This document shows positions 11,939-28,892 of a stretch of DNA of 64,000 bases, in pieces. Position 1 is the first letter of the stretch, and each line of letters opens with the position of its first letter. The DNA comes from Solwaraspora sp. WMMD406 (lineage in GTDB: Bacteria; Actinomycetota; Actinomycetes; Mycobacteriales; Micromonosporaceae): assembly GCF_029626025.1 (NCBI RefSeq), contig NZ_JARUBF010000001.1, positions 372,001 through 436,000 on the forward strand, given 5' to 3'. The notes under the pieces are model-generated. The model searched no databases and was not told the DNA's origin. It saw only the letters and a program-made list of their open reading frames with translations. The translations under genes and the position numbers were made by a program.

Positions 11939-11988
11939 CCCACCTGCGGGAGGACTCGCCGAGGCCGAGCCCGTCCGGGGAGACGTTC

Positions 11989-12041
11989 AGCTGTACGTGA
12001 GCCACCTTCGGTGCCCCGGCGACGGTGGCTGACGTACAGCT
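11989..12041. terminator. Long hairpin, first copy of a repeated palindrome
   Basis: AGCTGTACGTGAGCCACC (11989-12006) pairs with 12024-12041 with one mismatch around a 17-nt loop. It sits between the convergent stops of the CDP-alcohol transferase and the DUF559 gene, so it can terminate both. Its 3' arm belongs to a 21-bp sequence repeated exactly at 13074-13094. Confidence 0.8.
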
Positions 12042-12045
12042 CAGC
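12025..12045. repeat. Left copy of a 21-bp direct repeat flanking the DUF559 gene
   Basis: The 21 bases beginning GTGGCTGACGTACAGCTC recur without mismatch at 13074-13094 in the same orientation. This copy overlaps the stop codon of the DUF559 gene, and the other lies 131 bp upstream of its chosen start. Confidence 0.9.
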
Positions 12046-12943: not shown

Positions 12944-13037
12944 CGCACCACGATGCGGGTGGATCGGGCCGCGCGCTGCCCCGACGGGCAGTCCGGTCGC
13001 TCTTCCGACACGGAATCCGAGATGGACGACATCGCCG

Positions 13038-13090
13038 AGCTGTACACCAGCCACCTCGGTAGCCCCGTTGTACGTGGCTGACGTACAGCT
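13038..13090. terminator. Long hairpin, second copy of the repeated palindrome
   Basis: AGCTGTACACCAGCCAC (13038-13054) pairs with 13074-13090 with two mismatches around a 19-nt loop whose sequence resembles that of the first copy (CGGT, then GCCCCG). It lies 20 bp downstream of the GT4 glycosyltransferase stop (minus strand) and may terminate it. Confidence 0.75.
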
Positions 13091-13094
13091 CAGC
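13074..13094. repeat. Right copy of the 21-bp direct repeat
   Basis: Identical to 12025-12045 and in the same orientation. Together the two copies bracket the DUF559 gene over 1,070 bp. Confidence 0.9.
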
Positions 13095-13110
13095 GAGGAC
13101 AGGGCAGACG

Positions 13111-14310
13111 TCAGCGCCGAGCAGTCACCGCGTCGTAGATGGCGAGGTGCTGCTTCATGACCACGTCGGGGTGGAAGGTGCTCTCATAGCGGGTGCGGGC
13201 GACGCCGGCCAAGGCGGTAGCGCCGTCGCGGGCGACCGGCAGGGCGGCGGCCAGCGCGGCCGCCTCCGGCGGCACCACCCAGCCGGCCGGACCACTGGCC
13301 CCGCCGGCACCGGCGGAGTCGGCGGCATCGGCGCCGATCAGGTACGGAATGCCGCCGAGCGCGGTACCGAGCACCGGCCGGCCGCTGGCCAGCGCTTCGA
13401 TCACCACGGTCGGCAGGACGTCGTGCCAGGTGGAGACGGCCAACACCACGGCGGTGGCGCGCAGCGCGTCGCGTACCGCTGATCTGTCCAGCGGGCCGAG
13501 GAAGTCGATGTCGGCGCGGTCGGCGGCGGCCGACTCGACGAAGGGCCGCAGTTCGCCGTCGCCGCCGATCCGCAGCGTGCCGAGCGCCCCGTCGGGGTGC
13601 CGCCGCCAAGCGTCGAGCAGCAGGCCGATGCCTTTTTCCGGGGTGAGCCGGCCGAGGAACAGGAAGCCGTCGCCGAGCGGGGCGGGCGGTCCGGGGTCCG
13701 GGATCGCGTTCGGCTTGACCGTGATCCGCTCGTCGGGAATGCCGTACTCGCGCAGGTGCGCGGCGACGGCGGAGGTGAGCGCGATGAACCGGTCGACCGA
13801 ACGCCAGGTGGGTCGGTGCAGGGCCAGAGTGGCGGCCATCACCGCGCTCTGCGCCCGGGAGCCCCGGTAGCAGCGGTGCAGCACGCCCGGCAGGCCGATC
13901 GCCCGCCCCCGGCAGTCGGTGCAGATCCGGCCGTCGCGAAAGTACAGGCCCGACGAACAGACCTGCCGGTAGTTGTGCACGGTGTGCACCACCGGCACCT
14001 GGTGACGGTGGGCGGTGCGGATCGCCCAGGGCGAGATCAACGGGTACGGGTTGTGCAGGTGCAGCACATCGGGTCGGTGCTCGCGGAGCAGGCGGTCCAG
14101 GTCGCGCTCGGCGGCCGGGGCATAGCCGGGCGAGATCGGCAGCAGCGCCTTGCCGGCCGCCGACATCGCCGGGATGTCGTCGGAGCTGCGCAGGAACGGG
14201 ACGACGTCGACTCCGGCGGCGGCGAGTTGGGCGATCTCGCTGTCGACGATGACGTTCTCGCCGGACGGCTGGGCCTGCCGGTAACGGTTGTGCGCCACGA
14301 CGACTCTCAC
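13111..14310 (-). CDS. GT4 family glycosyltransferase (group 1)
   Basis: 399 residues with a GT-B fold. The N-terminal half has MRVVVAHNRYRQAQPSGEN, LHLHNPYPLISPWA and VVHTVHNYRQVC. The C-terminal donor-binding half has FLFLGRLTPEKGIGLLL and the E-x7-E-type motif LPTVVIEALASGRPVLGT. It transfers a sugar from an NDP-sugar; donor and acceptor are unknown. A cysteine cluster (CSSGLYFRDGRICTDCRGRAIGLPG) is typical of a subfamily acting in exopolysaccharide assembly, consistent with the polyprenyl sugar transferase 1.2 kb away. It is divergent from the glycosylase gene with only 45 bp between starts. Confidence 0.9.
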   Translation of the reverse strand: MRVVVAHNRYRQAQPSGENVIVDSEIAQLAAAGVDVVPFLRSSDDIPAMSAAGKALLPISPGYAPAAERDLDRLLREHRPDVLHLHNPYPLISPWAIRTAHRHQVPVVHTVHNYRQVCSSGLYFRDGRICTDCRGRAIGLPGVLHRCYRGSRAQSAVMAATLALHRPTWRSVDRFIALTSAVAAHLREYGIPDERITVKPNAIPDPGPPAPLGDGFLFLGRLTPEKGIGLLLDAWRRHPDGALGTLRIGGDGELRPFVESAAADRADIDFLGPLDRSAVRDALRATAVVLAVSTWHDVLPTVVIEALASGRPVLGTALGGIPYLIGADAADSAGAGGASGPAGWVVPPEAAALAAALPVARDGATALAGVARTRYESTFHPDVVMKQHLAIYDAVTARR

Positions 14311-14355
14311 CGGTCAACCCTCCTGCTCGACGTCGTCAGACGCTACCGTCTGAGG

Positions 14356-15273
14356 GTGCCCGAGTTGCCGGAGGTCCAGGCGCTCGCGGCCTACCTGCGG
14401 GAGCGCGCGGTGGGTCGCCGGGTGCAGCGTGTCGAGGTGTGCGCGATCAACGCGCTCAAGACCTACGATCCGCCGCCGTCGGCGCTGGCCGGCCGTACGG
14501 TGACCGATGCCGGCCGGCACGGCAAGTTCCTCGACGTCGAGTTCGGTGACGGCAACGAGGTGCACGGCGTCGACGGCGGCGGCGACGATGGCGAGGTGCA
14601 CGGCGAACCCGTGCGTCTGGTGGTGCACCTGGCGCGGGCCGGTTGGCTGCACTACCGGGAACGTTTCCCGTCGGCGGCGCCGTTGAAGCCGGGCAAGGGG
14701 CCGATAGCGCTGCGGGTACGGCTCGACGACGGTTCCGGCTTCGACCTGACCGAGGCCGGTACGCAGAAGAAGTTGGCCGCCTATCTGGTGACCGATCCGG
14801 GTGCCGTGCCGGGGGTGGCCCGGCTGGGTCCGGACGCGCTCACCGCCGATCTGGCGACCTTCAGCGAGCGGTTGCGTGGTCGCCGGGGTCAGGTCAAAGG
14901 GGTGTTGACCGATCAGGAGGTGCTGGCCGGGATCGGCAACGCGTACTCGGACGAGATCCTGCACACGGCGCGGTTGTCGCCGTTCGCCCTCACCCACCGG
15001 CTGAGCGACGAGCAGCTGGGCGTCCTGCACGCGGCGACCGGCCAGGTGTTGTCGGACGCGGTGCGGCGGTCGGTCGGGCAACGGGCGGCGGAGTTGAAGG
15101 GTGAGAAGCGTTCCGGACTCCGGGTGCACGCCCGGACCGGCCTCCCTTGCCCGGTTTGCGGCGATCAAGTGAGAGAAGTCTCTTTTGCAGATTCGAGCCT
15201 GCAGTACTGCCCCATCTGCCAGACCGGCGGCAAGCCACTCGCTGACCGACGGTTGTCCCGTCTTGTGCGTTAG
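14356..15273 (+). CDS. Fpg/Nei family DNA glycosylase
   Basis: 305 residues from a GTG at 14356. The mature N-terminus PELPEVQALAAYL supplies the catalytic proline and glutamate. The helix-two-turn-helix region has LTDQEVLAGIGNAYSDEILH. The C-terminal zinc finger is complete (CPVCGD, then CPIC). These enzymes excise oxidised bases and nick the abasic site. An acidic Gly-rich insertion (GDGNEVHGVDGGGDDGEVHG) sits near residue 60. The frame is open upstream to 13597, antisense to the glycosyltransferase, and that part is rejected. Confidence 0.9.
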   Translation: MPELPEVQALAAYLRERAVGRRVQRVEVCAINALKTYDPPPSALAGRTVTDAGRHGKFLDVEFGDGNEVHGVDGGGDDGEVHGEPVRLVVHLARAGWLHYRERFPSAAPLKPGKGPIALRVRLDDGSGFDLTEAGTQKKLAAYLVTDPGAVPGVARLGPDALTADLATFSERLRGRRGQVKGVLTDQEVLAGIGNAYSDEILHTARLSPFALTHRLSDEQLGVLHAATGQVLSDAVRRSVGQRAAELKGEKRSGLRVHARTGLPCPVCGDQVREVSFADSSLQYCPICQTGGKPLADRRLSRLVR

Positions 15274-15481
15274 GTGACCAATTACGCCCGCAAACGACGA
15301 ACGCCCCGCGCCACGACGATCTGCACCACAACGGAGTCTTCCTTGGTGACAATCCATCGGTATAGTGGCCCGGTCCCAATGCTTCAACACCACCGGATTC
15401 GCCGGTCCCCGCCGTCGCGGCGGGGGGCGTAAAGTCATTCGGGTCACCGTGCGTGCACGGTCATCGTGAAAGACTGAGCTG
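15274..15481 (+). promoter_or_regulatory. Promoter/leader region of the sugar transferase gene
   Basis: A possible -10 element TATAGT lies at 15361-15366 with TTCCTT about 16 bp upstream. Downstream, a hairpin at 15407-15425 (CCCCGCCG pairs with CGGCGGGG) sits in the leader and could act as a terminator for the upstream gene or an attenuator. This is pattern-based only. Confidence 0.3.
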
Positions 15482-17110
15482 GTGGGCGAGCCAAGCCTTC
15501 ACGGAGAGTGGGCGGCACGTGTCACGCGGGAGGACGTGGGTGAGGTGACGACAAGCCTCCAGCGCCCGGTAACCAACACCAGCCGGAGCAACAGGGTGCG
15601 CCACGTCGACAGCTTCGAGATCCAACCACCCGTACCGGTGCCGCCGACCAACGGCGTACCCCGGTCCGCTTGGGCACGGGCCCGCCGCCGCGCGTCGCGC
15701 TGGCACCGCCCGTACACGGCGATCCTGCTCGGCCTGGACTTCGCCGCCGCCGTGCTGGCCAGCTTCGTGTCGATTTCGCTGTTCGAGAAGGCGACCTCCG
15801 GGTTCTCCGACGCGGACGTCGACGCCACCTGGTTCCACACCGTCACCTACCTGCTGCTGCCGCTCGGTTGGATCGTGGTCCTCTGGGCCACCGGCGCGTA
15901 TGACCGCCGCTACCTCGGGTTGGGAACGGACGAGTTCAAGCGGGTCCTGCGGGGGGCGGTGACCGTCGCGGCGAGCGTTTCCTTTCTCGCCTTCGCCACC
16001 AAGACCGACCTTTCTCGACTTTCCGTCGCCACCGCACTACTCGGCGCGCTGGTGTTCATTCTGTTGTTCCGCTTCCTGGCCCGTTACGCCCTGCACGTCC
16101 TGCGCCGCCGGATCGGTCACGCGGCGCACCGGATGGTGCTGATCGGCACCCTGCCCGAAGCGCTGGAGGTCTTCACCGCGGTCACCCGCAGCCCGGCGGC
16201 CGGGCTGATCCCGGTCGCCATCCACCTCACCGACGGCTACGCGGCGGCCCGGGGGATCGAGACCCCGGTGCCCGTGTACGCCGGCCGCAACGTGCTCGCT
16301 CTGGTCCGGGAGGTGGGTGCGGACACCATCGCGGTCTGCGGATCGGCCAGCTCCGAGCCGGGAGAGCTGCGTCGGCTGGCCTGGCAACTCGAAGGCAGCG
16401 GGGTCGACCTGGTGGTCGCTCCGCAGCTCACCGACATCGCCGGCCCCCGGGTACACATCCGCCCGATCGAGGGCCTGCCGCTGCTGCACGTCGAGGAACC
16501 GACCTTGTCCGGGCTCGGCTGGCTGGCCAAGAACCTGCTCGACCGGGTGGCCGCCGGTCTGGGGCTGCTGGTGCTGGCACCGTTGTTCCTGGCCGTCGCG
16601 ATCGCCATCCGGGCCTCCGATCGCGGTCCGGTGTTCTTCCGGCAGTCCCGGGTCGGGCACGAGGGCAAGGTCTTCCGGGTCTGGAAGTTCCGCACCATGT
16701 ACGTCGACGCCGAGGATCGACTCGCCTCCCTGGTCGATCAGAACGAGACCGACGGCATGCTGTTCAAGATCCGCAACGATCCACGGGTCTTCCCGGTCGG
16801 CCGCTTCCTACGGGCCAGCTCGATCGACGAACTACCGCAGTTGATCAACGTGCTCAAGGGCGAGATGTCGCTGGTCGGTCCCCGGCCGCTGCCCGCCGAC
16901 GACGGCGACTTCCTCGGCGACGTCCGGCGGCGGCTGCTGGTCCGGCCGGGCATGACCGGCCTGTGGCAGGTCTCCGGACGCTCCGACCTCTCCTGGGACG
17001 AGGCAGTCCGGCTGGACCTCTACTACGTCGACAACTGGTCGCTCACGTACGACCTGGGCATCCTCTGGCGCACCATCGGCGTCGTCCTGGCCCGCAAGGG
17101 CGCCTACTGA
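15482..17110 (+). CDS. Exopolysaccharide polyprenyl glycosylphosphotransferase
   Basis: 542 residues from a GTG at 15482. After a basic N-terminus come about four transmembrane helices (LDFAAAVLASFVSI and LLLPLGWIVVLWATG among them). A CoA-binding-like region (about residues 215-335) follows, then a fifth helix and the bacterial sugar transferase domain (about 350-540) with RVWKFRTMYVDAEDR, KIRNDPRVFPVGRFLR, SIDELPQL and GLWQVSGRSDLSW. It transfers a sugar-1-phosphate to undecaprenyl phosphate, starting polysaccharide assembly at the membrane. The last codons (VLARKGAY) form the first unit of a 29-bp tandem repeat that runs on past the stop. Confidence 0.93.
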   Translation: MGEPSLHGEWAARVTREDVGEVTTSLQRPVTNTSRSNRVRHVDSFEIQPPVPVPPTNGVPRSAWARARRRASRWHRPYTAILLGLDFAAAVLASFVSISLFEKATSGFSDADVDATWFHTVTYLLLPLGWIVVLWATGAYDRRYLGLGTDEFKRVLRGAVTVAASVSFLAFATKTDLSRLSVATALLGALVFILLFRFLARYALHVLRRRIGHAAHRMVLIGTLPEALEVFTAVTRSPAAGLIPVAIHLTDGYAAARGIETPVPVYAGRNVLALVREVGADTIAVCGSASSEPGELRRLAWQLEGSGVDLVVAPQLTDIAGPRVHIRPIEGLPLLHVEEPTLSGLGWLAKNLLDRVAAGLGLLVLAPLFLAVAIAIRASDRGPVFFRQSRVGHEGKVFRVWKFRTMYVDAEDRLASLVDQNETDGMLFKIRNDPRVFPVGRFLRASSIDELPQLINVLKGEMSLVGPRPLPADDGDFLGDVRRRLLVRPGMTGLWQVSGRSDLSWDEAVRLDLYYVDNWSLTYDLGILWRTIGVVLARKGAY

Positions 17111-17198
17111 CCGTCCTGGCCCGCAAGGGCGCCTACTGACCGTCCTGGCCCGCAAGGGCGCCTACTGACCGTCCTGGCCCGCAAGGGCGCCCACTGAG
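17083..17198. repeat. 29-bp tandem repeat, four copies, spanning the sugar transferase stop codon
   Basis: Units start at 17083, 17112, 17141 and 17170. Each begins CGTCCTGGCCCGCAAGGGCG and contains the TGA stop. The first encodes the natural C-terminus and the other three are non-coding copies after the stop. Only the last copy shows a substitution (CCTACT to CCCACT). The unit is not a multiple of three. Confidence 0.95.
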
Positions 17199-17271
17199 CC
17201 CTCGCCCGGCAACGGGCGCGGATCCCCGCCGGGCGCTTGGCAGCGCGCCCGGCAGGCGACAAGATCTGTCC

Positions 17272-18591
17272 GTGGCGGCAAACGTATCCGCGTCGCTCGC
17301 GGTCCTGGCCCTGGTGACGGCCCTGGCCGCAGCCGTCTACGCGGTGGTCCGGCTCCGGGCCCGTCGGGGCATCGCCACCGCCACGCAGCGCGCGACCTAC
17401 CAGGTTCTGCACACCGCCGGCCTGGCCGCCGAGCCACTGCGCAACGGCCTCGACTCCGCCACGGCGGCGAAAGCCGTACGGCAGCTTCGGGCCCTGGTCG
17501 GCGCGCCGGGCGCGGCGTTGGCCACCGCCAGCACCGTGCTCGCCTTCGACGGCCGGGGCAGCCACCACGCCGCGCAGCTGACCGCCGCCTCGGCGCGAGC
17601 CATCGAGGCCGGCCGGTCGCTGGTGCTCGGCGGTCGCGACCTCGCGTGCGACCGGCCCGACTGCCCGATCCGGGGCGCCGTCGTCGCCCCGCTGACCGGA
17701 CCGGACGGCACCTCGGCGGTGGTGCTGGTCGCCGTCGTCGACGACGATCCCGCACCCGGCCTGGTGCAGGCGACGCTGGAGACCGCCCGCTGGGCCGCCA
17801 GCCAGCTGGCGCTCGCCGAGCTGGACTCGTCGCGGGAACGGCTCGCCCGCGCCGAGGTACGGGCGCTACGTGCCCAGATCAGCCCACATTTCATCTACAA
17901 CGCGCTGACCGCAATCGCCTCGTTCGTCCGTACCGATCCGGAACGGGCCCGGAATCTGATCCTTGAGTTCGCCGAGTTCACCCGGTACTCCTTCCGGGCG
18001 CACGGCGAGTTCACCACACTGGCCGAGGAGCTGCGCTCCATCGATCGCTATCTGACCATCGAACGGGCCCGGTTCGGCGAACGCCTTCAGGTACGGCTGC
18101 AGATCGCCCCCGAGGTGCTTCCCGTCAACCTGCCGTTCCTCTGCCTGCAGCCACTGGTCGAGAACGCGGTGCGGCACGGCCTGTCGCGCAAGCCGGGACT
18201 GGGTACGGTGAGCATCCAGGCCCGGGACGCGGGCACCGAATGCCACATCACGGTCGAAGACGACGGAGTAGGCATGGATCCCGCCGTACTGTCGGACCGA
18301 TCCACCGGCGGCGCGGCGACCGGCGGCGCGGACGGTGGCGGCACGGCGACTGGTGGCGGCACGGACGGTGGCGGGCCGGACCGTCGACCCAGTGGCGATC
18401 CACTCGACGACGCCGGCCAGCACGTCGGTCTGTCGAACGTCGACGAGCGGCTTCGGTCGGTCTTCGGGGATCAGTTCGGGCTGGTGGTCGAGACGGCGGT
18501 GGGAGCGGGTACGAAGGTGAGCATGCGGGTGCCGAAGTTCCACCCCGACGTCCGCACCGGGACGGCCGGGCGCTGGGAGGTGATCCCGTGA
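17272..18591 (+). CDS. LytS-type sensor histidine kinase
   Basis: 439 residues from a GTG at 17272. One N-terminal membrane helix (LAVLALVTALAAAVYAVV), a GAF-like sensory region (about 60-170) and a short coiled segment lead to the His_kinase domain. The phosphoacceptor is H206 in AQISPHFIYNAL. The ATPase has LVENAVRHGL, EDDGVGMD and GLSNVDERL. Between the last two motifs lies an unusual Gly/Thr/Ala-rich insert of about 30 residues coded by GGCGGC-type repeats. The gene overlaps the response regulator (GTGA), so the two form a pair. The signal is unknown; DRPDCP in the sensory region supplies cysteines that might bind a ligand. Confidence 0.92.
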   Translation: MAANVSASLAVLALVTALAAAVYAVVRLRARRGIATATQRATYQVLHTAGLAAEPLRNGLDSATAAKAVRQLRALVGAPGAALATASTVLAFDGRGSHHAAQLTAASARAIEAGRSLVLGGRDLACDRPDCPIRGAVVAPLTGPDGTSAVVLVAVVDDDPAPGLVQATLETARWAASQLALAELDSSRERLARAEVRALRAQISPHFIYNALTAIASFVRTDPERARNLILEFAEFTRYSFRAHGEFTTLAEELRSIDRYLTIERARFGERLQVRLQIAPEVLPVNLPFLCLQPLVENAVRHGLSRKPGLGTVSIQARDAGTECHITVEDDGVGMDPAVLSDRSTGGAATGGADGGGTATGGGTDGGGPDRRPSGDPLDDAGQHVGLSNVDERLRSVFGDQFGLVVETAVGAGTKVSMRVPKFHPDVRTGTAGRWEVIP

Positions 18592-19343
18592 CACCTTTCC
18601 TGCGGGTACTCGCCGTCGACGACGAGCCACCGGCGCTCGACGAATTGGCGTACCTGCTGCGCGCCGACCCCCGGGTGGCGCGGCTGCACACCGCGTCCGA
18701 CGCCACCGAAGCGCTGCGGGTGTTGCGGGACACCGACGTCGACGCGGTCTTCCTCGACATCCGGATGCCCGGCCTCAACGGGATGGAACTGGCCCGGATC
18801 CTGCGCCGGTTCGCCCGTCCACCGGCGATCGTCTTCGTCACCGCCTACGACGACGCGGCGGTGGACGCGTTCGACCTGGGCGTCACCGACTACGTCCGCA
18901 AGCCGGTCCGGGCCGAGCGACTCGCCGAATCGGTCCGGCGGGTGCTCACCGCACGGGTCGTGCCGGCGCAGCCGGCCGCGCTGGCCCGTGCCGAGGAGGA
19001 TCCGGCGATTCCGGTCGAGCTGGCCGGCACCACCCGGATGCTGCCCCGGTCCGCCGTACGGTGGGTGGAGGCGCAGGGCGACTACGCCCGACTGCACACG
19101 GCCGAAGGGTCCCATCTGGTCCGGGTGCCGCTCGCCACCCTCGGGGACCGCTGGGCCGACGCCGGGTTCGTCCGCATCCACCGGTCTTTCCTCGTCCAAC
19201 TACGGCTAATCACCGAACTACGATTGGCCAATTCTGGCTACGTGGTGGTGATCGACGGCACCGAGCTTCCGGTCTCCCGCCGGCATACCCGCGAGTTGAA
19301 GGACAAGCTGGTTCGAGCCGCCAAGCACGACTGGAGCAAGTGA
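18588..19343 (+). CDS. LytTR family response regulator
   Basis: 251 residues, translationally coupled to the kinase. The receiver domain (1-120) has the acidic pair DDE at 11-13, phosphoacceptor D57 in FLDIRMPG, and the lysine in DYVRKPVRAE. A linker of about 25 residues precedes the LytTR DNA-binding domain (about 145-250) with VRWVEAQGDYARLHT, RVPLATLGDRW, FVRIHRSFLV and LPVSRRHTRELK. Targets of this kind of regulator are usually cell-envelope or transport genes. No candidate target lies next to it: the following gene is convergent. Confidence 0.93.
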   Translation: MTPFLRVLAVDDEPPALDELAYLLRADPRVARLHTASDATEALRVLRDTDVDAVFLDIRMPGLNGMELARILRRFARPPAIVFVTAYDDAAVDAFDLGVTDYVRKPVRAERLAESVRRVLTARVVPAQPAALARAEEDPAIPVELAGTTRMLPRSAVRWVEAQGDYARLHTAEGSHLVRVPLATLGDRWADAGFVRIHRSFLVQLRLITELRLANSGYVVVIDGTELPVSRRHTRELKDKLVRAAKHDWSK

Positions 19344-19387
19344 CCGGAAGCCGGGCCGGCGTGTGGACGACGGCGGGGCGGCTCGGA

Positions 19388-19786
19388 TCAGGCCGCCCGG
19401 CGGCGCAGGGTGGCCACCGCCGAACCGGCGAGCGTGAGGAGACACTCCGGCAACTGTCCGTCGGCGAGCGCCGCGCCGAACAGCGCCTCGCCGGTCGAGA
19501 CGTCCGAATTCGCGTAGGCGCTGAGGAACCGGGCCACCCAGCGGGCGTCGTAGCGGGCTTCGTCGATCCCAGGGAAGTCCAGGGTCCAGGAGCCGACCGG
19601 GACGTCCTCCCCGACCATCGTCGCGGCGAGGCGCCAGGCGACGTCGTACGCGCCGGCCACCCCGCTCCGGTCGACCACCGCGTCGAAGGTGCCCACCACG
19701 GCCTCGCTGTCCCCGGCGAGAGCGGAGCGCAGCACCTGCGCAGCGTCGTCGAACGCCTCGTCGGCACCATCGCGTCGGTCGGTCAT
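19388..19786 (-). CDS. Conserved hypothetical protein
   Basis: 132 residues from the ATG at 19786; the frame upstream to 20011 lacks coding character. It is an acidic, helical cytoplasmic protein (DEAFDDAAQVLRSALAGDSEAVV, YDVAWRLAATMV, ARFLSAYANSDVSTGEALF). I recognise no domain. It lies convergent to the LytTR regulator and divergent, by 212 bp, from the binding-protein gene at 19999. Confidence 0.6.
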   Translation of the reverse strand: MTDRRDGADEAFDDAAQVLRSALAGDSEAVVGTFDAVVDRSGVAGAYDVAWRLAATMVGEDVPVGSWTLDFPGIDEARYDARWVARFLSAYANSDVSTGEALFGAALADGQLPECLLTLAGSAVATLRRRAA

Positions 19787-19998
19787 GAGCGGAAGGGTAT
19801 GCGCCAGGGTCAAGAAGCGACCAGGGAACGCGCCGCCCGGCGCCGCACCCGCTCGGTGAGAACTGGCCGCCGACGTGGCGTTTCCGCCAACCGCCGCCTC
19901 CGCTGCCGTCCGACGCCTCCACCAGGCCACGCTGTCGCGTTTACGCGGGTAAGGCGCTATGGTGCCCTGCGGACCTTCGGCCGATGGAGGACGTCCCC

Positions 19999-21354
19999 AT
20001 GCTCGTGTCACGCGGCTCCCGCACCGCCGCTCTGGCCGTCTGCGCGACTCTGCTGGTCACCGCCAGCGGCTGTGGCGAGTCGTCAGCCGAGGGCGACGAC
20101 GACGCCCCGCCCGCCTCCGTCCGGTTGTATGGCACCGACGGCAACATGAGCAACTCGTTCGGCGCCGAGTTCGCCGATCAGGTCGGCCTGCTCGCCGGGA
20201 TGAAGGGCACCAGCCCGCTCACGCCGCTCTCCGACGACTTCATCGGACGGCTGCGGGCCGTCGACTCGCAACTGACCGGTTTCCTCTACGCCGGGGAAGC
20301 GTACGACGCCGTGGTGATCACCGCCCTGGCCGCGCAGCTGGCCGGTAACACCGACCCGGCGGACATCGCCGCCCAGATCAACGGGGTCACCACCGGCGGT
20401 GAACCCTGTGACGTCGTCGCGCGCTGCCTCGAACTCGCCCGCGACGGTACGGACATCGAGTATCGCGGCATCTCGCTCAAGCGCGGCGGTTTCACCGACG
20501 CCGGGGAACCCTCCACCGCGAGCTACGCCACGTTGCACTTCGGTGAGAACGGTCAGATCAACGACGGCAAGACCGAGTTCGTGGGAGCCGGCGACGAGTC
20601 GACAACGACCACGGCCGCGCCGCCGCCGGCCAAGGCGCAGAACGGTTCCGGCCGGGGCAGTGGTGCTCCGCTCAAGCTCGGCGGACTGTTACCCCGTACC
20701 GGTGATCTGTCGCTGGCCTATCCGCCGCTGGCCGCCGGTGCCGCGCTCGGCGTCGAGGAGGTCAACGCCGCCGGTGGTGTGCTCGGCGACTCGGTGGAGT
20801 GGTTCGACGGCGACGACGGCACCAATCCGGACGTCGCCCGCGCGACGGTCGCCCGGCACGTCGACGAAGGCGTACACGTCATCATCGGCGCCGGCGCCTC
20901 CGGCATCTCCCGGGCGGTGTTGCCGGACGTCGTAGCCGCCGGCCTGATCCTCTTCTCCCCGTCCAACACCGACGCCGGGCTCAGCAGCGTCGCCGACGAA
21001 GGTCTGTACTTCCGGACCGCGCCGTCGGACCTGCTGCAGGGCCGGGCGCTGGCCGACGTCATCCTGCGGGACGGCCCGCAACGCGTCGCCGTGGTGGCAC
21101 GCAAGGACTCGTACGGCGAAGGGCTCCAGGAGAACGTCCGGGCCGAGTTGGCCCGGGCCGGGATCGGGCCGGAGCGGATCAAGCTGCTCACCTACGAACT
21201 ACCGGAGGGCGCGGACGCCCCGCCGATCGACTTCGACAGCGGCGCCGAGGAGGTCAAGGAGTTCGGCGCCGACGCGATCCTCGTCATCGGGTTCGGCGAG
21301 TCGGCCGAGGTGATCAAGGCACTGGCCGCGGTGGGGTTGCCGATAGCCGGATAG
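19999..21354 (+). CDS. Type I periplasmic-binding lipoprotein with its two halves in swapped (circularly permuted) order
   Basis: 451 residues; the ATG at 19999 has GGAGG 8 nt upstream. Residues 1-25 are a lipoprotein signal ending in TASGC. Residues 41-200 (RLYGTDGNMSNSF, FLYAGEAYDAVVITALAA, GGFTDAGEPSTASYATLHF) correspond to the C-terminal half of branched-chain amino-acid type binding proteins. Residues 201-224 are a Thr/Pro/Gly linker. Residues 225-451 (KLGGLLPRTGDLS, EEVNAAGGVLGD, YFRTAPSDLLQGRALADVI, AILVIGFGESAEVIKAL) are the normal N-terminal half. The protein stops just after GLPIAG, where the C-terminal half would normally begin. No transport genes adjoin it. Ligand unknown. The order is read directly; the fold comparison rests on family knowledge. 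Confidence 0.85.
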   Translation: MLVSRGSRTAALAVCATLLVTASGCGESSAEGDDDAPPASVRLYGTDGNMSNSFGAEFADQVGLLAGMKGTSPLTPLSDDFIGRLRAVDSQLTGFLYAGEAYDAVVITALAAQLAGNTDPADIAAQINGVTTGGEPCDVVARCLELARDGTDIEYRGISLKRGGFTDAGEPSTASYATLHFGENGQINDGKTEFVGAGDESTTTTAAPPPAKAQNGSGRGSGAPLKLGGLLPRTGDLSLAYPPLAAGAALGVEEVNAAGGVLGDSVEWFDGDDGTNPDVARATVARHVDEGVHVIIGAGASGISRAVLPDVVAAGLILFSPSNTDAGLSSVADEGLYFRTAPSDLLQGRALADVILRDGPQRVAVVARKDSYGEGLQENVRAELARAGIGPERIKLLTYELPEGADAPPIDFDSGAEEVKEFGADAILVIGFGESAEVIKALAAVGLPIAG

Positions 21355-21453
21355 GCCGGTCCGGGTGGCACTTTCTCGGGATCACGTGGCGGTCGCCGGC
21401 TGCGTACGGTTGCCCCAGTCACCAGTGAGAACGATCTCGAAAGAGGAACCGCG

Positions 21454-22062
21454 ATGAGCGAGTACGTCGACCCGACCCTCAGCGACGACACCATCGAGGC
21501 GGAGCAGGGTCTCGGCGGCCACGACGACCCGGGGTACGGCGACCCGGGCCACACCGACGCCGGCTACGAGCCGTACGGCGGCGACGCGTACACGGTGGTC
21601 CAGCACAACATCGACGGCTCCACCGACGTGGTGATCGACTCCGACGGTGACGGGTACGCCGACACGGTGCTGCACGACCAGGACAGCGACGGGATCGCCG
21701 AGGTCGCATACCACGACGTCAACGGCGACGGCCGGCTGGACAGCATGCTGCGGGACTTCGACGGAGATGGTCTGGTGGACCAGGTCAGCGTGGACACCAA
21801 CGGTGACGGCATGATCGACGTCACCTCGTCGGACACCAACGGTGACGGTCTGATCGACCACGTGGTGGAGGACACCAACTTCGACGGCCAGGCGGACACC
21901 TGGACCCAGGACACCAACTTCGACGGTCGGGCCGACCAGGTCCAGGTCGACCTGACCGGTGACGGGGTGGCGGACCAGATCCTGCGGGACATCGACCAGG
22001 ACGGGATCGCCGACCAGGTCACCTACGTCAACCCCGAGGTCAACCCGTACGCCGCGCGCTGA
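21454..22062 (+). CDS. Acidic protein of ten 13-residue DxDxDG repeats (calcium-binding type)
   Basis: 202 residues, ATG with AGAGGA upstream. After a Gly/Asp/Tyr-rich N-terminus (about 45 residues), ten consecutive 13-residue units follow, such as DSDGDGYADTVLH, DVNGDGRLDSMLR and DTNGDGMIDVTSS. These are thrombospondin-type-3/EF-loop-like calcium-binding sequences. There is no signal peptide, anchor or other domain, so the protein appears cytoplasmic unless exported by an unrecognised route. The shorter paralogue follows at 22144. Pairing with it suggests a shared role; the function is unknown. Confidence 0.85.
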   Translation: MSEYVDPTLSDDTIEAEQGLGGHDDPGYGDPGHTDAGYEPYGGDAYTVVQHNIDGSTDVVIDSDGDGYADTVLHDQDSDGIAEVAYHDVNGDGRLDSMLRDFDGDGLVDQVSVDTNGDGMIDVTSSDTNGDGLIDHVVEDTNFDGQADTWTQDTNFDGRADQVQVDLTGDGVADQILRDIDQDGIADQVTYVNPEVNPYAAR

Positions 22063-22143
22063 GTGGGCTCGGGTCGCGGCGAATCGGCCGGCACCCTACT
22101 GTCACATCCGGGAAGTCGCGACGTGAGCTATGGAGGAACAGCG

Positions 22144-22392
22144 ATGAGCGAGACCCAGGAGACGGTCGAGACCCGTGGGGAAGACCGGGTCGACCTGCTC
22201 AAGGCGGACACCAACAACGACGGTCAGACCGACGTCTGGGTGGTGGACACCGACGGCGACGGCAAGGCCGACATGTACCAGTTCGACACGGATGGCGATG
22301 GCAAAGTGGACATCACCATGGTCGACCTCGACGAGGACGGCACCCCGGACGAGGTGGTGGACGGAGACGGCGGGCACCCGCCGACGAGCTGA
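22144..22392 (+). CDS. Small paralogue with four 13-residue DxDxDG repeats
   Basis: 82 residues from the ATG at 22144 with GGAGGA upstream. A Glu/Thr-rich N-terminus starting MSETQETVETRGED leads to units DTNNDGQTDVWVV, DTDGDGKADMYQF, DTDGDGKVDITMV and DLDEDGTPDEVVD. It has the same architecture, spacing and MSE start as the preceding gene, and probably arose by duplication. It has no signal peptide. A strong terminator follows. Confidence 0.85.
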   Translation: MSETQETVETRGEDRVDLLKADTNNDGQTDVWVVDTDGDGKADMYQFDTDGDGKVDITMVDLDEDGTPDEVVDGDGGHPPTS

Positions 22393-22432
22393 TCCGTCCC
22401 GAGCCGATCCGTCTTGGGCGCGGACAGACTAA

Positions 22433-22473
22433 GGGGGCGGGAATCTCCGGACGTACCGCAGATTCCCGCCCCC
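22433..22473. terminator. Bidirectional terminator hairpin
   Basis: GGGGGCGGGAATCT (22433-22446) pairs perfectly with 22460-22473 around a 13-nt loop, between the convergent stops of the DxDxDG gene and bldC. Confidence 0.85.
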
Positions 22474-22509
22474 GGCTAGCCGATGTCAGCCCATCTGGAG
22501 AGAGGCTTG

Positions 22510-22719
22510 TCAATCACCCTGACGCTGCTGGGGAATCTGCCCCTGCAGCAGGGCACGAACTTCCGACTCCCGGTAACGGCGGTGCCCACCCAACGTCCGG
22601 ATGGCGCTGAGCTTGCCGGCTTTCGCCCACCGGGTGACGGTTTTCGGGTCGACTCGGAACATCGACGCCACCTCGGCCGGCGTGAGCAGCGGCTCTGGTT
22701 CGTGCGTACGCGATGCCAT
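22510..22719 (-). CDS. bldC: Developmental transcriptional regulator BldC
   Basis: 69 residues: a single MerR-type winged helix-turn-helix (LTPAEVASMFRVDPKTVTRWAKAGKL) and the wing TLGGHRRYRESEVRALL. This is the short BldC family of actinobacteria, which binds DNA cooperatively at direct repeats and controls the onset of development in Streptomyces. Length and sequence fit full-length BldC. A long AT-rich leader lies upstream. The order bldC - hypothetical - valine dehydrogenase matches the arrangement I recall from Streptomyces coelicolor. Confidence 0.95.
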   Translation of the reverse strand: MASRTHEPEPLLTPAEVASMFRVDPKTVTRWAKAGKLSAIRTLGGHRRYRESEVRALLQGQIPQQRQGD

Positions 22720-23016
22720 CAGTCACTCCTCCACAGTGCTATAGACATCGGCCGGGGTCCCGCCGGCCGACGCGTCTCCCATGGTCCGGCTAGTCCCCGA
22801 TGTCCGACATGGGCCGAACGGCCGAACGTCCTTGGATGGACGGATGAGCAATGACCGATTTTTGTATATTTTTTACACCAGAACATATCTTAATCGGACT
22901 CTTGATCACCAGTCGTGAAGGCCTGATTACGAATAAACCTCGGAAACGACGGTTCGGTGCCACTAAGATATGCGTGATTTGGGATGGTATCGACCGATCG
23001 TGACTACCGAAGGTCA
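22720..23016 (-). promoter_or_regulatory. AT-rich upstream region of bldC
   Basis: This 297-bp gap has no gene. Its right two-thirds (about 22850-22990) is far richer in A/T than the surroundings, with runs such as TTTTTGTATATTTTTT. On the minus strand a TATACA at 22863-22868 could be a -10 element, which would leave a 5' leader of roughly 140 nt before bldC. The exact start site is not determinable by eye. Confidence 0.4.
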
Positions 23017-23856
23017 CTAGTTGCAGCGTTCGAGCAACTGCACGGCCCGCCAGCGGGCCACCAGCTTCTCGTACGCCTCGCTGGCCTCATCGGCGTCGCC
23101 CCGGGACAATGCCGCGAGCCCCGCCGCGACCAACCCGGGTGAGTCGTCCGACTCCAGCGCCTCGTCCGGCAACAGCTGCACCAACCCGCCGTAGTCGAGC
23201 TCGACGACCGAACGCGGATGGAACTCCTCCAACCACCGGGCGCTCTCCTCGACCGCCTCGGTGATCGGGGCGTCACCCACCGACTTGCGCAGCACCGACA
23301 GCCCTCGGGAAGCCCGTCGCCGCGCCTTGGAGATCTCGGTCCGGTAGCGCAGCGCGCGACGCGGCCGGGCGGTCACCAGTTCGCGCTCGGTGAGATCGAC
23401 GAAGACGAACCACCGCAGCGGCACTCCCCACGTCGCCGCCTGTTCATGCACCCTCGGCACGCCCTGCTCCAACACCCGCGCTCCGCTGCGCCAGTCGTCG
23501 ACCACCGCCCTGGCCTGCCCGGCCAGGATCGGCGGCACGAAGGCGTCGGCCAGCACGGACGGGACGCCGTCCCGGGCGCTCAACGCCGCCTCCGCGACCC
23601 GCACCCGAAGGTTCCACGGACAGATCAGCAAGGAGTCGTCGGACTCCAGCACGTACGCCTCGTCCGGCAGGTCGGGCAGCCGCGTCCAGCCCGCCCCGAG
23701 CGCCTCGATGACCACGGTGCGCTGCCGGCCCGGACCGTCGAGCGGGCCGACTGCCCGACCGTCACGGACATAGCGACGCCAGTACGCCTGCCGCTCGCGG
23801 TCGAAGGCGGTCAGCGGCTCGTAGACCCGCAGGTACGCGGCAAAGAGGGACGGCAC
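23017..23856 (-). CDS. Conserved actinobacterial hypothetical protein
   Basis: 279 residues from a GTG at 23856 (GGGAGGATCG upstream); the frame upstream to 23940 lacks support. It begins PSLFAAYLRVYEPLTAFDRE, and the Trp in WRRYVRDGR and WLEEFHPRSVVELDYGGL look conserved. The protein is soluble and has no recognised catalytic motif. Synteny with bldC on one side and valine dehydrogenase on the other is shared with Streptomyces as I recall, so it is probably an orthologue of the gene between them there. The function is unknown. Confidence 0.8.
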   Translation of the reverse strand: MPSLFAAYLRVYEPLTAFDRERQAYWRRYVRDGRAVGPLDGPGRQRTVVIEALGAGWTRLPDLPDEAYVLESDDSLLICPWNLRVRVAEAALSARDGVPSVLADAFVPPILAGQARAVVDDWRSGARVLEQGVPRVHEQAATWGVPLRWFVFVDLTERELVTARPRRALRYRTEISKARRRASRGLSVLRKSVGDAPITEAVEESARWLEEFHPRSVVELDYGGLVQLLPDEALESDDSPGLVAAGLAALSRGDADEASEAYEKLVARWRAVQLLERCN

Positions 23857-24058
23857 GGCGCGATCCTCCCACGAAACCGCTCGGCGTCGCCCCTGGCGGG
23901 CACAACCGGTATGTGAGCGCAAGCCGGTACGCGAGCGCAAACCGGTACGTCGGCGAGGTCGCCCACGTCGCGGTCGATACTAGGCTCGATCGCACCGGCT
24001 CACCGGCCGGCGCCACGGACCGCACCTCACGAGGGTGCCACCGACCCCAGGAGTAGAC

Positions 24059-25174
24059 ATGGGCGTCTTCGCCACCACCGCCGACCCGGCGGCGACCGGG
24101 CACGAACAGGTCGTCTTCTGCCAGGACCGACCCACCGGGCTGAGGGCCATCATCGCCATCTATTCGACCGCGCTCGGACCGGCCCTCGGCGGGACCCGGT
24201 TCCATCCGTACGCCAGCGAGGCCGACGCCCTCCGCGACGTGCTCGAGCTGTCCCGGGGAATGGCGTACAAGAACGCCATGGCCGGCCTCGACCTCGGCGG
24301 CGGCAAGGCGGTGATCTGGGGCGACCCGGAACAGCTCAAGACCGAACCCCTGCTGCGCGCGTACGGGCGCTTCGTCGAATCGCTGGGCGGTCGCTACTAC
24401 ACCGCCTGCGACGTCGGCACCTACGTACCGGACATGGACGTCGTCGCCCGGGAGACCCGCTTCGCCACCGGGCGCAGCCGCGAGTCCGGCGGCGCCGGCG
24501 ACTCGTCGATCCTCACTGCCTGGGGCGTCTTCCAAGGCATGCGGGCGGCGGCGCAACACCGCTGGGGTACGCCGAGCCTGGCCGGCCGTCGGGTCGGCAT
24601 CGCCGGGCTCGGCAAGGTCGGCAAGCACCTGACCGGCCATCTGATCGACGAAGGCGCCTCGGTGGTGGCCACCGACGTCGACGAGCAGGCCCTAGCCTGG
24701 GCCAAGGCCAGTTACCCACAGGTGGATCTGATCGCCGACGTGGAGGCCCTGATCCGCAGCGACATCGAGATCTACGCCCCGTGCGCGCTCGGCGGCGGGT
24801 TGGACGACCACACCGTCGAGGTGTTGCGGGCGGCGATCGTCGCGGGCGCCGCCAACAACCAGCTCGCGCATCCCGGCATCGACAAGTCGCTGGCTGAGCG
24901 GGGCATCCTCTACGCGCCCGACTACGTCGTCAACGCCGGAGGCGTGATCCAGGTCGCCGACGAGGTGATCGGCGGCCGGACGCCGTCAGCGAGCGGCCGG
25001 TACGGGTTCGACTTCGACCGGGCCAAGGCCCGGGCCACCCGGATCTTCGACACCACCCTGCAGATCTTGCGCGGCGCCCAAGACGAGGGAGTGCCACCGG
25101 CGGTGGTGGCCGACCGACTGGCCGAACGGCGGATGGCCGAAGTCGGCCGATTGCGGACGATCCATCTGCGTTGA
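24059..25174 (+). CDS. vdh: Leucine/valine dehydrogenase (Glu/Leu/Phe/Val dehydrogenase family)
   Basis: 371 residues from the ATG at 24059, with AGGAG 6 nt upstream. Family landmarks are [12 protein letters not shown], the catalytic lysine region [29 protein letters not shown], and the NAD+-binding loop [12 protein letters not shown]. The C-terminal part has [20 protein letters not shown] and [18 protein letters not shown]. The enzyme deaminates branched-chain L-amino acids with NAD+, giving 2-oxoacids for catabolism and acyl-CoA precursors. The gene is divergent from the hypothetical at 23017-23856 and followed by the DUF3073 gene. Confidence 0.95.
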
Positions 25175-25391
25175 ACGGGTCACGGCGGGTCACGGGCGGC
25201 GGGGACGAGAGCTCCTTACCCCGCCGTCAGCCGGGGGTTGACGAATATTCGATGACGCGCGGGGACGACCCGATGCAACCCGAGGTGCCGAACCCGGGTC
25301 TGCCCATGTACCGTAAGAGCCACGAGAGATGCCTGACGTCATCGGGGCCCGCCTTCGGGCTGCCCCGAATTCTGTGCGAGGGGGTCGAGCC

Positions 25392-25607
25392 ATGGGGCGC
25401 GGCCGTGCTAAGGCCAAGCAGACAAAGGTGGCCAGGGAGCTGAAGTATCACTCCCCGAACACCGACCTCGCCGCCTTGCAGCGAGAGCTCGCCGGCAGCG
25501 GCAAGTCGGACCGTGAATTCGACGACGAGTACGACCCGTACCTCGCCGACGATGACGAGGACGACGAGGACGGCCGGGGTAGTTGGACACCCGCCTCGTC
25601 CCGCTGA
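25392..25607 (+). CDS. DUF3073 family protein
   Basis: 71 residues starting MGRGRAKAKQTKVARELKYH, the invariant N-terminus of DUF3073, followed by SPNTDLAALQREL and a very acidic tail (DDDEDDEDG). It is small, basic at the front and acidic at the back, with unknown function. It is widely conserved in actinobacteria next to purM and valine dehydrogenase. A terminator hairpin lies 18 bp after the stop. Confidence 0.92.
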   Translation: MGRGRAKAKQTKVARELKYHSPNTDLAALQRELAGSGKSDREFDDEYDPYLADDDEDDEDGRGSWTPASSR

Positions 25608-25624
25608 GGGTCCGGCTGGAGCAG

Positions 25625-25647
25625 AGCACGCGGTAGGTCCGCGTGCT
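25625..25647. terminator. Terminator hairpin after the DUF3073 gene
   Basis: AGCACGCGG (25625-25633) pairs with CCGCGTGCT (25639-25647) around TAGGT. The rest of the 306-bp gap up to 25913 holds only a 29-bp tandem repeat and no credible gene. Confidence 0.7.
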
Positions 25648-25782
25648 GATTCATGTCGACGGAAGACTCCGGCCCAAGCAAGCGAGTGTGCGTCGGAACA
25701 GTCACCATCCGGTGGTGCGCGGCCTTGACGATCTGGGCGCGCACCACCGGACAGTTCCCACGTTCGGGTCACCGCCGACCTT

Positions 25783-25923
25783 CCGGACCCGGACGCCTCA
25801 GCGCGGCTGAACCGGACCCGGACGCCTCAGCGCGGCTGAACCGGACCCGGACGCCTCAGCGCGGCTGAACCGGACCCGGACGCCTCAGCGCGGCTGAACC
25901 GGACCCGGACGCCTCAGCGCGGC
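25783..25923. repeat. 29-bp tandem repeat, nearly five copies, reaching the stop codon of the peptide precursor gene
   Basis: Units beginning CCGGACCCGGACGCCTCAGC start at 25783, 25812, 25841, 25870 and 25899. The last copy carries the TCA (TGA on the minus strand) that stops the cyclophane precursor gene and then runs into its final codons. The other copies are downstream of that gene. Confidence 0.95.
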
Positions 25924-26339
25924 CGGTTGTTCCAGTTGTAGAAGGTCGGGATGTTTTCGAAGTGGTTCCAGGCACAGACCGCAGACCCGTCGGCGGTATC
26001 GGTCGCCTCGGCACGTCGGCGTCTGGCCTGATCCGCCTCGGCGAGCAGCCGGACGAGTCCGTGCCGGGCCTCGTGCACCCGCTCCGTCACCAGGTCGACC
26101 CCGTCGACCCCGCTGCTGGCCGGGTCATGGTCACCGGGCTCGGCGTCGCTGATGACCGCAGGGTGCACCGACGGCCCGGACGGTCCAGCGGCCGCGACGA
26201 CTCCAGCGGCCGCGACGACCCCGGTGGGCGGTACGGCGGTCAGCTGCCCGGTGCCGGGCGACCGGCCGGGTCCGAGCGGTGGCGCGGCAGCGCCGACGTC
26301 GGCGCGGTCACTCCGGGGACGACTGCTGGTCTCTGGCAT
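25914..26339 (-). CDS. amcA: Multiple-cyclophane RiPP precursor peptide (AmcA-like)
   Basis: 141 residues from the ATG at 26339, which has GGAGGGAG about 9 nt upstream and overlaps the end of the radical SAM gene by 32 nt. The long leader is Pro/Ala/Gly-rich, then helical (DLVTERVHEARHGLVRLLAEADQARRR). The last 20 residues (122-141) form the probable core. They contain W124-N-H, F127-E-N, F133-Y-N and W136-N-N, four aromatic-x-(N/H) triplets of the type cross-linked to three-residue cyclophanes. Position after a SPASM radical SAM maturase supports a ribosomally made, modified peptide. No transporter or protease gene is adjacent. Mature structure and activity are unknown. Confidence 0.8.
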   Translation of the reverse strand: MPETSSRPRSDRADVGAAAPPLGPGRSPGTGQLTAVPPTGVVAAAGVVAAAGPSGPSVHPAVISDAEPGDHDPASSGVDGVDLVTERVHEARHGLVRLLAEADQARRRRAEATDTADGSAVCAWNHFENIPTFYNWNNRPR

Positions 26340-27474
26340 GGGCCAACACTCCCTCCAGTAGGTGGATCTTGCTGTTACGGCAGTGATTGGTCTCCGTACC
26401 GTCAAAACGCCCGTGTTCGAAGTAACGGTTGGCAGCATGTCCACCTCCGCAAAAACGGAAATACGCACAACTGGTACGACATGCCTCGACGCCGGCAACG
26501 AACTCCTGCACCCAGGCGGCGCGTTGCGCCGTCCCCAGGATTTTCGCCAAGCTGTCCGTTAGCACGTTTCCGCTGCTGAAGTCCCCGTACCTGGGGTCGG
26601 AAAAGCCGGCCAGCTCGGGTGAGAGCAGCACCACCGCGCCGTCGTAGCCGATCGTGGGGATCGGGTCGAGCTGGCGGGGCAGCACTTGGTCGGCGTGACC
26701 GTCCAAGACGGCGGCGGCATACCGCAACGACCACTCCACCTCGCGCAGGTGAATGTGGGGCGACCGCCGCCAGGCACCGACCAGTTCCGCCCAGAACCCG
26801 GAGACCGCCTGCGGGGACCAGGCGTTGGACCGGGTGTTCAGCCCTTCCGTCTCCTCGATGTTGATACCGAGGACGTCGCAGCCCAGGCCGAGAAAGTATT
26901 CGTACAGCTCGGTAGCCAGGCCCGGCGTCGGGTCGCTGACCACGCAGAGCGCCGAGAAGTCGATTCCGTGCCGGCGCAGCGTCTCGACCCCCCGGACGAT
27001 CTGGTCGTACGCGGGACGCCCGCTGCGACCACGGCGCTCGTCGTTGCGGGCCCGTGGGCCGTCCACGCTGATGCTCACCCGGATCTGGCGGTCGACGAAG
27101 AACTCGCACCAGGCGTCGTCGATCAGGGTGGCGTTGGTCTGCACGTGGTGCTCGACGTCCGGGCTGAACGGCGCCAGCAGACCGGCCAGGTGCTCCCGGC
27201 CGGCGGCGAGCGGCTCACCGCCGTGCCAGACCACCGAGAACCGCTGCCGCGCCGCCCATCCGTTGACCGACTCCGCCACGGCGGCGGCGACAGACACCGG
27301 CATCCGTCGGTTCGCCGCCCGCAACGGGAGATAGCAATAAGTACAGTCGAGATTACATAGAGTTGTCGGCTGCATCACCACATAGCTGGGAACGCTGGCC
27401 AGACCGCGCATTCCGGCCGGGACCGGTCGTGCACCACCACCTGACCCGAGCGGCCGGCTTCCGTCCCTGATCAT
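26308..27474 (-). CDS. amcB: Cyclophane-forming radical SAM/SPASM peptide maturase (AmcB-like)
   Basis: 388 residues, ATG with GGAGG 5 nt upstream. The [4Fe-4S]/SAM motif is C40-x3-C44-x2-C47 (CNLDCTYCYLP). VVWHGGEPL and VSISVDGP are typical radical SAM barrel motifs. The C-terminal SPASM region carries further cysteines (CRTSCAYFRFCGGGHAANRYF, then NHC) for auxiliary clusters; GGGHAANRYFEHG is characteristic of peptide-modifying members. It is expected to abstract hydrogen from side-chain beta carbons of the precursor and join them to aromatic rings. It is co-transcribed with, and overlaps, the precursor gene. It lies in the otherwise conserved interval between DUF3073 and purM. Confidence 0.9.
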   Translation of the reverse strand: MIRDGSRPLGSGGGARPVPAGMRGLASVPSYVVMQPTTLCNLDCTYCYLPLRAANRRMPVSVAAAVAESVNGWAARQRFSVVWHGGEPLAAGREHLAGLLAPFSPDVEHHVQTNATLIDDAWCEFFVDRQIRVSISVDGPRARNDERRGRSGRPAYDQIVRGVETLRRHGIDFSALCVVSDPTPGLATELYEYFLGLGCDVLGINIEETEGLNTRSNAWSPQAVSGFWAELVGAWRRSPHIHLREVEWSLRYAAAVLDGHADQVLPRQLDPIPTIGYDGAVVLLSPELAGFSDPRYGDFSSGNVLTDSLAKILGTAQRAAWVQEFVAGVEACRTSCAYFRFCGGGHAANRYFEHGRFDGTETNHCRNSKIHLLEGVLAHARDQQSSPE

Positions 27475-27482
27475 CGACCCTC

Positions 27483-27520
27483 CTACCGCCTGTCCGGTGT
27501 CGTTTCAGGCTAGGCGGTAG
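27483..27520. promoter_or_regulatory. Inverted repeat upstream of the radical SAM gene
   Basis: CTACCGCCT (27483-27491) and AGGCGGTAG (27512-27520) form a perfect 9-bp dyad with a 20-nt centre, directly over the ribosome binding region of the maturase. It could terminate purM transcription, form a leader hairpin hiding the ribosome site, or be an operator. Confidence 0.45.
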
Positions 27521-27618
27521 AGGCACCGGATCGAGCCGTCGTCGACCGGCACCCGGACATCCCGGGCGGCGGACCTCAGCCATCGACCACGCCACCGCGA
27601 CCGGGGCGGATCGACGCT

Positions 27619-28788: not shown

Positions 28789-28892
28789 GGTTCTCCCCTT
28801 TGTGCTTCTCGCGGCTACGACCGCGTCGGGTAGCTGTCGAGGATCACTCGACTCGGGCTGCCGACCGGAACAGCTGGGCGGTCCGGTCGGTG

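Follow-up and report, generated by a model that had tools for sequence, protein, structure and literature searches.

Sequence comparisons confirm that the window, the 64,000-nucleotide stretch of DNA from Solwaraspora sp. WMMD406 that was analysed, carries a gene for a LivJ/LivK-like lipoprotein with a natural circular permutation, in which the two halves of a binding protein follow each other in swapped order. We hold it to be very probable, as an overall explanation, that such proteins arose on several separate occasions from the ordinary binding protein (SBP) of a conserved Liv locus, and that the gene became an orphan in the branch to which the window belongs. The parts of the gene are collected in Table 1; an in-frame ATG at 19984 could also serve as its start.

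Table 1. Parts of the permuted gene, in positions of the window.
Feature	Position	Strand	Description	Basis or remark
Permuted SBP lipoprotein ORF	19999..21354	+	Circularly permuted Leu/Ile/Val-type (Peripla_BP_6), 451 aa plus stop	Homology, rotated-query matches
Signal peptide with lipobox-like motif TASGC25	19999..20073	+	Cys25 is the predicted lipid-anchored residue	Sequence
Acidic/Pro/Ala tether from lipid Cys to first strand	20074..20118	+	Residues 26-40	Variable in relatives
The family's second part	20119..20598	+	Residues 41-200; begins SVRLYGTDGN	Rotated alignments
New linker from old C-terminus to old mature N-terminus	20599..20664	+	Residues 201-222	Looser selection
The family's first part	20665..21351	+	Residues 223-451; ends VGLPIAG at the cut, then stop	

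In its real order, the protein matches Peripla_BP_6 (PF13458) over residues 224-448 only, covering profile positions 1-216 of 343 (2e-31); the score of 110.4 bits, against a cut-off of 31.7, places it within the family. Residues 1-200 alone gave no Pfam match better than 0.057. When the protein was re-joined with its halves swapped back, the same profile was covered from 1 to 312 of 343 and the score rose to 125.9 bits. Similarly, the re-joined protein aligned with the Escherichia coli leucine-binding protein 1usg in one stretch, residues 25-306 (1.4e-15), with its artificial junction at about residue 220 of 1usg. The real-order protein matched residues 25-165 only, in a PDB search in which Leu/Ile/Val-binding proteins were matched by the same part. 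Ordinary-order paralogues gave the same picture. Residues 37-205 alone matched all six of them (L041-L046; E 9e-28 to 4e-11), just downstream of the match of the other half. A rotated query, which is the alignment to branched-chain amino-acid binding proteins that the preliminary description had proposed, gave a single HSP of 350-378 aa at 37-41% identity in each of the six. In the distant family members L002, L009, L010, L016, and L017, residues 37-205 alone gave no clear match. Both ends of the protein fit the unbroken junction of relatives, for example GIGPQETPLYLVDGN in L110. Since the matches become one piece after re-joining and the ends fit each other, the order is really swapped, with the second part (41-200) preceding the first (223-451) in place of the canonical arrangement. 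The preliminary description had read the gene as a precise circular permutation of a type I binding protein of the branched-chain amino-acid type; rotated alignments, Pfam, and 1usg all bear this out, and the halves and junction lie where it had put them. Permuted proteins are only partly covered by Pfam and NCBIfam models; the window protein reaches 75.7 bits with PRK15404 (NF011933, high-affinity branched-chain amino-acid SBP), below the curated cut-off of 477.

The swapped order is widely conserved. Same-order orthologues are present in all seven genomes of the genus, the other six at 80-82% to the window protein. Within Micromonosporaceae (family f1 in our coding), where a search for the same order had been suggested beforehand, it was found in 120 of 200 genomes, counted as rows with a best E below 1e-100, many of them single-contig assemblies. 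A search of the order (249 genomes) added 33 genomes of Geodermatophilaceae (f16) and one of f13 with permuted order, at 43-48%, and a search of the class (296 genomes) added seven outside the order (two in f49, four in f39, and one in f41). At the level of the phylum (396 genomes), six permuted genes from other classes were found. An assembly rearrangement, the objection that the preliminary description had itself raised, is ruled out by the same order across genus, family, and order genomes. Among plasmid records, 21 match, all under 60% identity, and one of them spans more than 80% of the query, its match being split in two. Permuted and ordinary relatives share up to 74% identity in the first half. 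Comparison with nine orthologues gave dN/dS values of 0.11-0.36 for both halves and 0.30-1.04 for the linker.

In many Actinomycetes, the ordinary-order relative occupies a conserved slot. A marker search of 60 loci gave an ordinary layout of an ANTAR response-regulator gene, the SBP, and then convergent livF-livG-livM-livH, often flanked at one end by pyk and gltD and at the other by polA and a 4HBT thioesterase gene; Pfam confirms LivH, LivM, LivG, LivF, ANTAR, and 4HBT at slot loci. Nine of the loci L107-L118 have ANTAR, SBP, and LivF in this order, the remaining three being L110, which ends before LivF, L118, with no ANTAR match, and L116, with a different layout. In Micromonosporaceae with an ordinary gene (L101-L106), the SBP is on that side of livF which faces polA; ANTAR was seen in five of these stretches, each time at the far end. 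At one slot locus with a permuted gene (L093, 3636-4910) the LivH permease has an extra N-terminal CarboxypepD_reg domain.

Permuted genes outside Micromonosporaceae are found in much the same setting. LivF adjoins in 16 of 20 permuted loci from f16, f13, f49, f39, and f41 (L074-L093), and 13 of these 16 also have ANTAR on the other side. Three f39 permuted loci had no ANTAR match; L079 and L082 have ANTAR and no LivF within the stretch, L082 being at a contig end, and L078 and L080 are second permuted copies located elsewhere. In fresh sets of permuted loci, LivF adjoins in 13/13 and ANTAR in 10/13 from f41, and ANTAR is present in 10/10 from f49, with LivF within the short flank in 7/10. Of the six permuted genes from other classes, four adjoin LivF and two (f67) adjoin LivH in a divergent layout. 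In most permuted branches, the permuted SBP takes the place of the ordinary one next to LivHMGF, and so presumably feeds that transporter.

The permutation is not a local peculiarity, and the trees speak against a single event. Permuted proteins were rotated to ordinary order before trees were built. Three clades share one cut: A (Micromonosporaceae, Geodermatophilaceae, and one f13 genome), B (genus g187 of f49, with f39), and C (f41); two further clades, D1 and D2, are cut about 20 residues later. Permuted and ordinary genes occur within the same family in f41, with 13 permuted genes in 197 genomes among the matches listed, and in f49, with 11 in 85 genomes, of which one is cut by a contig end and that of G890 shows one half only. 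A first whole-protein tree of 80 rows (L009 and L097 left out, close f1 rows thinned) had three order changes, all forced by supported branches. A quick tree of 106 rows had five, three of them forced, and weakly placed the ordinary f41 protein L194, on a long branch, among permuted f41 rows; for this tree f1 and f16 were thinned, L049-L053 were left out, and so were L009, L094, L095, L097, L104, L119, L136, and L140 (outgroup or long branches). Trees of each half alone, from 48 hand-picked rows, also gave five changes, three forced. In these, each permuted half from f41 groups with ordinary f41 proteins (support 100 for the N half and 95 for the C half), which rules out halves of different origin in f41.

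Statistical comparison of topologies used hand-picked rows, 38 of 154 and then 47. In the 38-row tree the permuted f41 clade (98/97) is nested within f41 proteins (100/99). AU tests on these rows rejected one clade of all permuted rows (p 3.2e-7) and every pairing of clades (A+C 4e-6, A+B 8.6e-6, B+C 3.6e-4); A as a single clade was not rejected (0.57), and in the trees clade A is mixed with ordinary proteins of f8 and f15. Clade B has support of 87/77 in this tree and 95/96 in the 47-row tree. The latter includes the second cut type and has five changes, all forced; here the tests gave p values of 4.3e-9 for A+B+C, 0.0012 for A+D1, and 0.015 for D1+D2. The trees and AU tests together reject a single origin under the model used. 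On these comparisons at least three separate origins are well supported, and five are likely.

Cut positions, scored on a reference of 378 residues, are tightly grouped. Of the 48 rows assigned to f1, which include five misplaced ones (L049-L053, really f49, f39, and f41), 31 have the C-terminus at 224, as do 13 of the 14 rows from f16 and f13; it lies at 224-226 in five of nine B rows and at 223-224 in all 12 f41 rows. Six proteins from other classes (L283-L288, L308-L312; 11 rows) are cut after the DGN segment, with the C-terminus of this second cut type at 245 (8/8 rows) or 242 (3/3 rows). Most other values are, in our judgement, alignment artefacts of aligned linker. We are inclined to think that, within one phylum, the protein was permuted at least five separate times. 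Three of these events would have used the same loop, most of the new C-termini differing by no more than about two residues, and two a loop about 20 residues further on. The permuted genes usually stand where the operon has its ordinary SBP. With every event the lipid anchor would have shifted from lobe 1 to lobe 2, which would point away from accident and towards selection on the tethering site or towards an extra hinge strand.

Another way to explain these data is a permutation that took place once, long ago, and was passed on by horizontal transfer or survived as a paralogue that ordinary copies overwrote by gene conversion, so that the several origins are only apparent. Genus g187 offers observations in its favour. 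Ten of its 14 genomes have the permuted gene only (E below 1e-30), G887 has the ordinary gene only (by match order), G890 has half a gene, and one genome has nothing; G886 has both, a permuted SBP followed on the same strand by an adjacent ordinary one, with ANTAR and LivF to either side (L196, 1055-3980). The permuted proteins of g187 group with f39 and not with ordinary f49 proteins, so transfer is possible in this genus, and the patchy scatter of permuted genes over the f41 genomes counted above also counts for this reading. However, both permuted f41 halves separately group with ordinary f41 proteins, one permuted clade is rejected by AU, and there are two different cut sites. Furthermore, conversion would have to overwrite both halves and yet spare their order. 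We therefore regard a single ancient permutation as unlikely and favour repeated origins.

Tandem copies hint at how an origin might come about. Pairs of ordinary SBP genes stand in tandem in the slot of four genomes (G528, L113; G752, L181; G911, L197; and G907, L198), and, with the pair in G886, tandem copies fit duplication followed by replacement. Permutation by duplication is described in the available part of one review as the earliest proposed model (PMC3320104). The tandem-duplication route of the preliminary description is compatible with these copies, but a fused tandem duplicate was found in none of 190 ORFs. Derivation of the new linker from the usual post-signal linker, which it had been said to resemble, is at most a possibility; linkers differ between lineages.

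The branch of the window departs from the usual setting. No Liv transporter marker matched in window positions 11000-30000, in agreement with the earlier observation that no transporter genes adjoin. Of 33 chosen Micromonosporaceae, 21 lack cognate LivM (best match 40% or less); all 21 carry the permuted gene, and they include the seven genomes of the genus. The other 12 keep LivM, and nine of them also have the permuted gene. Elsewhere in the genome of the window (L318, 5654-16441; C1, 3414000-3432000), ANTAR is followed by another ordinary-order SBP-LivHMGF set and then by polA. This set is at 30-45% to the family's Liv proteins, the same is seen in G009 and G042, and the slot looks as if the original Liv operon had been replaced. 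In the same genome, six Peripla_BP_6 genes score above the cut-off, the permuted one among them, and three of the others also had no neighbouring permease match.

Several other genes lie close to the permuted gene. Directly downstream, at 21454-22062 and 22063-22392, are two small Asp-rich proteins with DxDxDG-like repeats; they belong to one similarity cluster, seen in 14 of 41 loci compared, with sub-threshold Pfam matches only. A Glu/Leu/Phe/Val dehydrogenase (PF02812, PF00208), possibly a branched-chain amino-acid catabolic enzyme, lies at 24035-25174, 2.7 kb downstream, and 12 of the 41 loci have a member of its cluster in the vicinity of the permuted gene. A histidine kinase is 1.4 kb upstream, as it is in three of 41 rows (the window, L054, and L055). 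The 4HBT gene adjoins the permuted gene in seven of 20 fetched Micromonosporaceae loci, and not in the window.

Since the gene is an orphan and another Liv operon fills the slot, the protein probably acts in trans or as an uptake-linked receptor. On balance we lean towards the first, that is, a protein that would bind branched-chain or similar amino acids and work in trans with another transporter; LivJ and LivK share LivHMGF, and SBPs can serve transporters encoded elsewhere. That the orphan of Micromonosporaceae is instead a receptor that no longer feeds a transporter, for example one reporting branched-chain amino acids to a partner, is possible but less probable. Its orphan state and the dehydrogenase nearby are compatible with such a function, but no sensor domain is fused to the permuted protein, and the few rows in which the histidine kinase recurs speak against this reading. 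The sensor or stand-alone binder of the preliminary description could apply only to the Micromonosporaceae branch, because same-order relatives in other families adjoin LivHMGF. A gene left behind after transporter replacement might also be a functionless relic, decaying or neutral, as the loss of cognate LivM throughout the genus, the different Liv operon in the slot, and the lack of an adjoining transporter gene could suggest. We consider this very improbable, given an open frame in all seven genomes of the genus, dN/dS near 0.2 within the genus and at most 0.35 against other genera, and the retention of the binding columns and both cysteines.

Conserved residues give an indication of the ligand. 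Ser301, Thr324, and Tyr372 align with Ser79, Thr102, and Tyr150 of the E. coli leucine-binding protein, and Asp47 (codon 20137-20139) aligns with, and replaces, its Glu226; we take these four residues, with Glu226 so numbered, to form the ligand site. Among permuted rows the columns are kept in 82/83 (Ser301), 82/83 (Thr324), 83/83 (Tyr372), and 83/83 (Asp47), and all four are kept in 71/71 ordinary rows; two cysteines are kept in every row of either order. As the ligand-site columns are kept, an alpha-amino acid is the likely ligand. By its alignments, the permuted protein most likely still folds as a two-lobed binding protein. The window protein has the signal peptide and lipobox cysteine of a lipoprotein, and a lipobox-like motif (loose pattern) precedes the first strand in 83/83 permuted ORFs, from which a shift of the anchor to the other lobe is to be expected. 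With the lobe limits of 1usg as we assume them, the cut at about residue 220 lies in the C lobe (lobe 2). The lipid anchor, which the ordinary protein carries at the N-terminus of lobe 1, would then be attached to a normally internal part of lobe 2. The old C- and N-termini would be bridged by a linker of about 20 residues, crossing between the lobes as a fourth connection.

Natural circular permutations are, to our knowledge, usually treated as ancient one-off events, the cause of which is difficult to test. Here both orders are found among close relatives, in the same slot, with the same transporter, several separate origins, and neighbouring cuts, so that the reasons why proteins permute, such as folding, anchoring, or hinge dynamics, become directly testable. 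The window protein resembles LivJ/LivK (Peripla_BP_6, type I or cluster B SBPs) in the homology of both halves, in its ligand-site columns, and in the Liv genes that adjoin permuted relatives in most lineages. In contrast to LivJ/LivK, it has swapped halves, an anchor before lobe-2 sequence, an extra linker, and no Liv neighbours.

In the literature found on permuted SBPs and natural permutation, which took in little subscription literature, no permuted Liv-type protein and no SBP permuted several times was found, and TpMglB-2 (Tp0684, with relatives) was the only natural permuted SBP recognised (PMC4990184). One natural permuted type I binding lipoprotein was therefore already known, and repeated permutation of one transporter gene did not turn up in this literature. 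According to the part of that paper available to us, TpMglB-2 belongs to the glucose-binding MglB family, has the first three N-lobe strands moved to its end, and gains a cross-over, a fourth inter-lobe connection; 'Type Ic / Cluster Bc' is proposed for it, and adaptation to tethering is raised as a possibility (PMC4990184). The window protein is, judging by its sequence, likewise a permuted type I binding lipoprotein, with a predicted added cross-over. Unlike TpMglB-2 as described there, it is of the Liv family, its best matches being Leu/Ile/Val-type, its cut at about 220 of 1usg lies by alignment in the C lobe, and the permutation appears to have several separate origins; it does not share the sugar-binding MglB homology with the first three N-lobe strands at the C-terminus. 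Repeated permutation of a lipoprotein does not prove the tethering idea, as worded in the accessible text, but is what it would predict. Saposin/swaposin and DNA methyltransferases, given in the available part of the review as cases of permutation by duplication (PMC3320104), show the same kind of rearrangement, for which tandem copies are the expected precursor. The Liv-type proteins differ from these examples, as far as that text describes them, in showing no fused duplicate among the ORFs searched and in a cut that recurs within a few residues across lineages.
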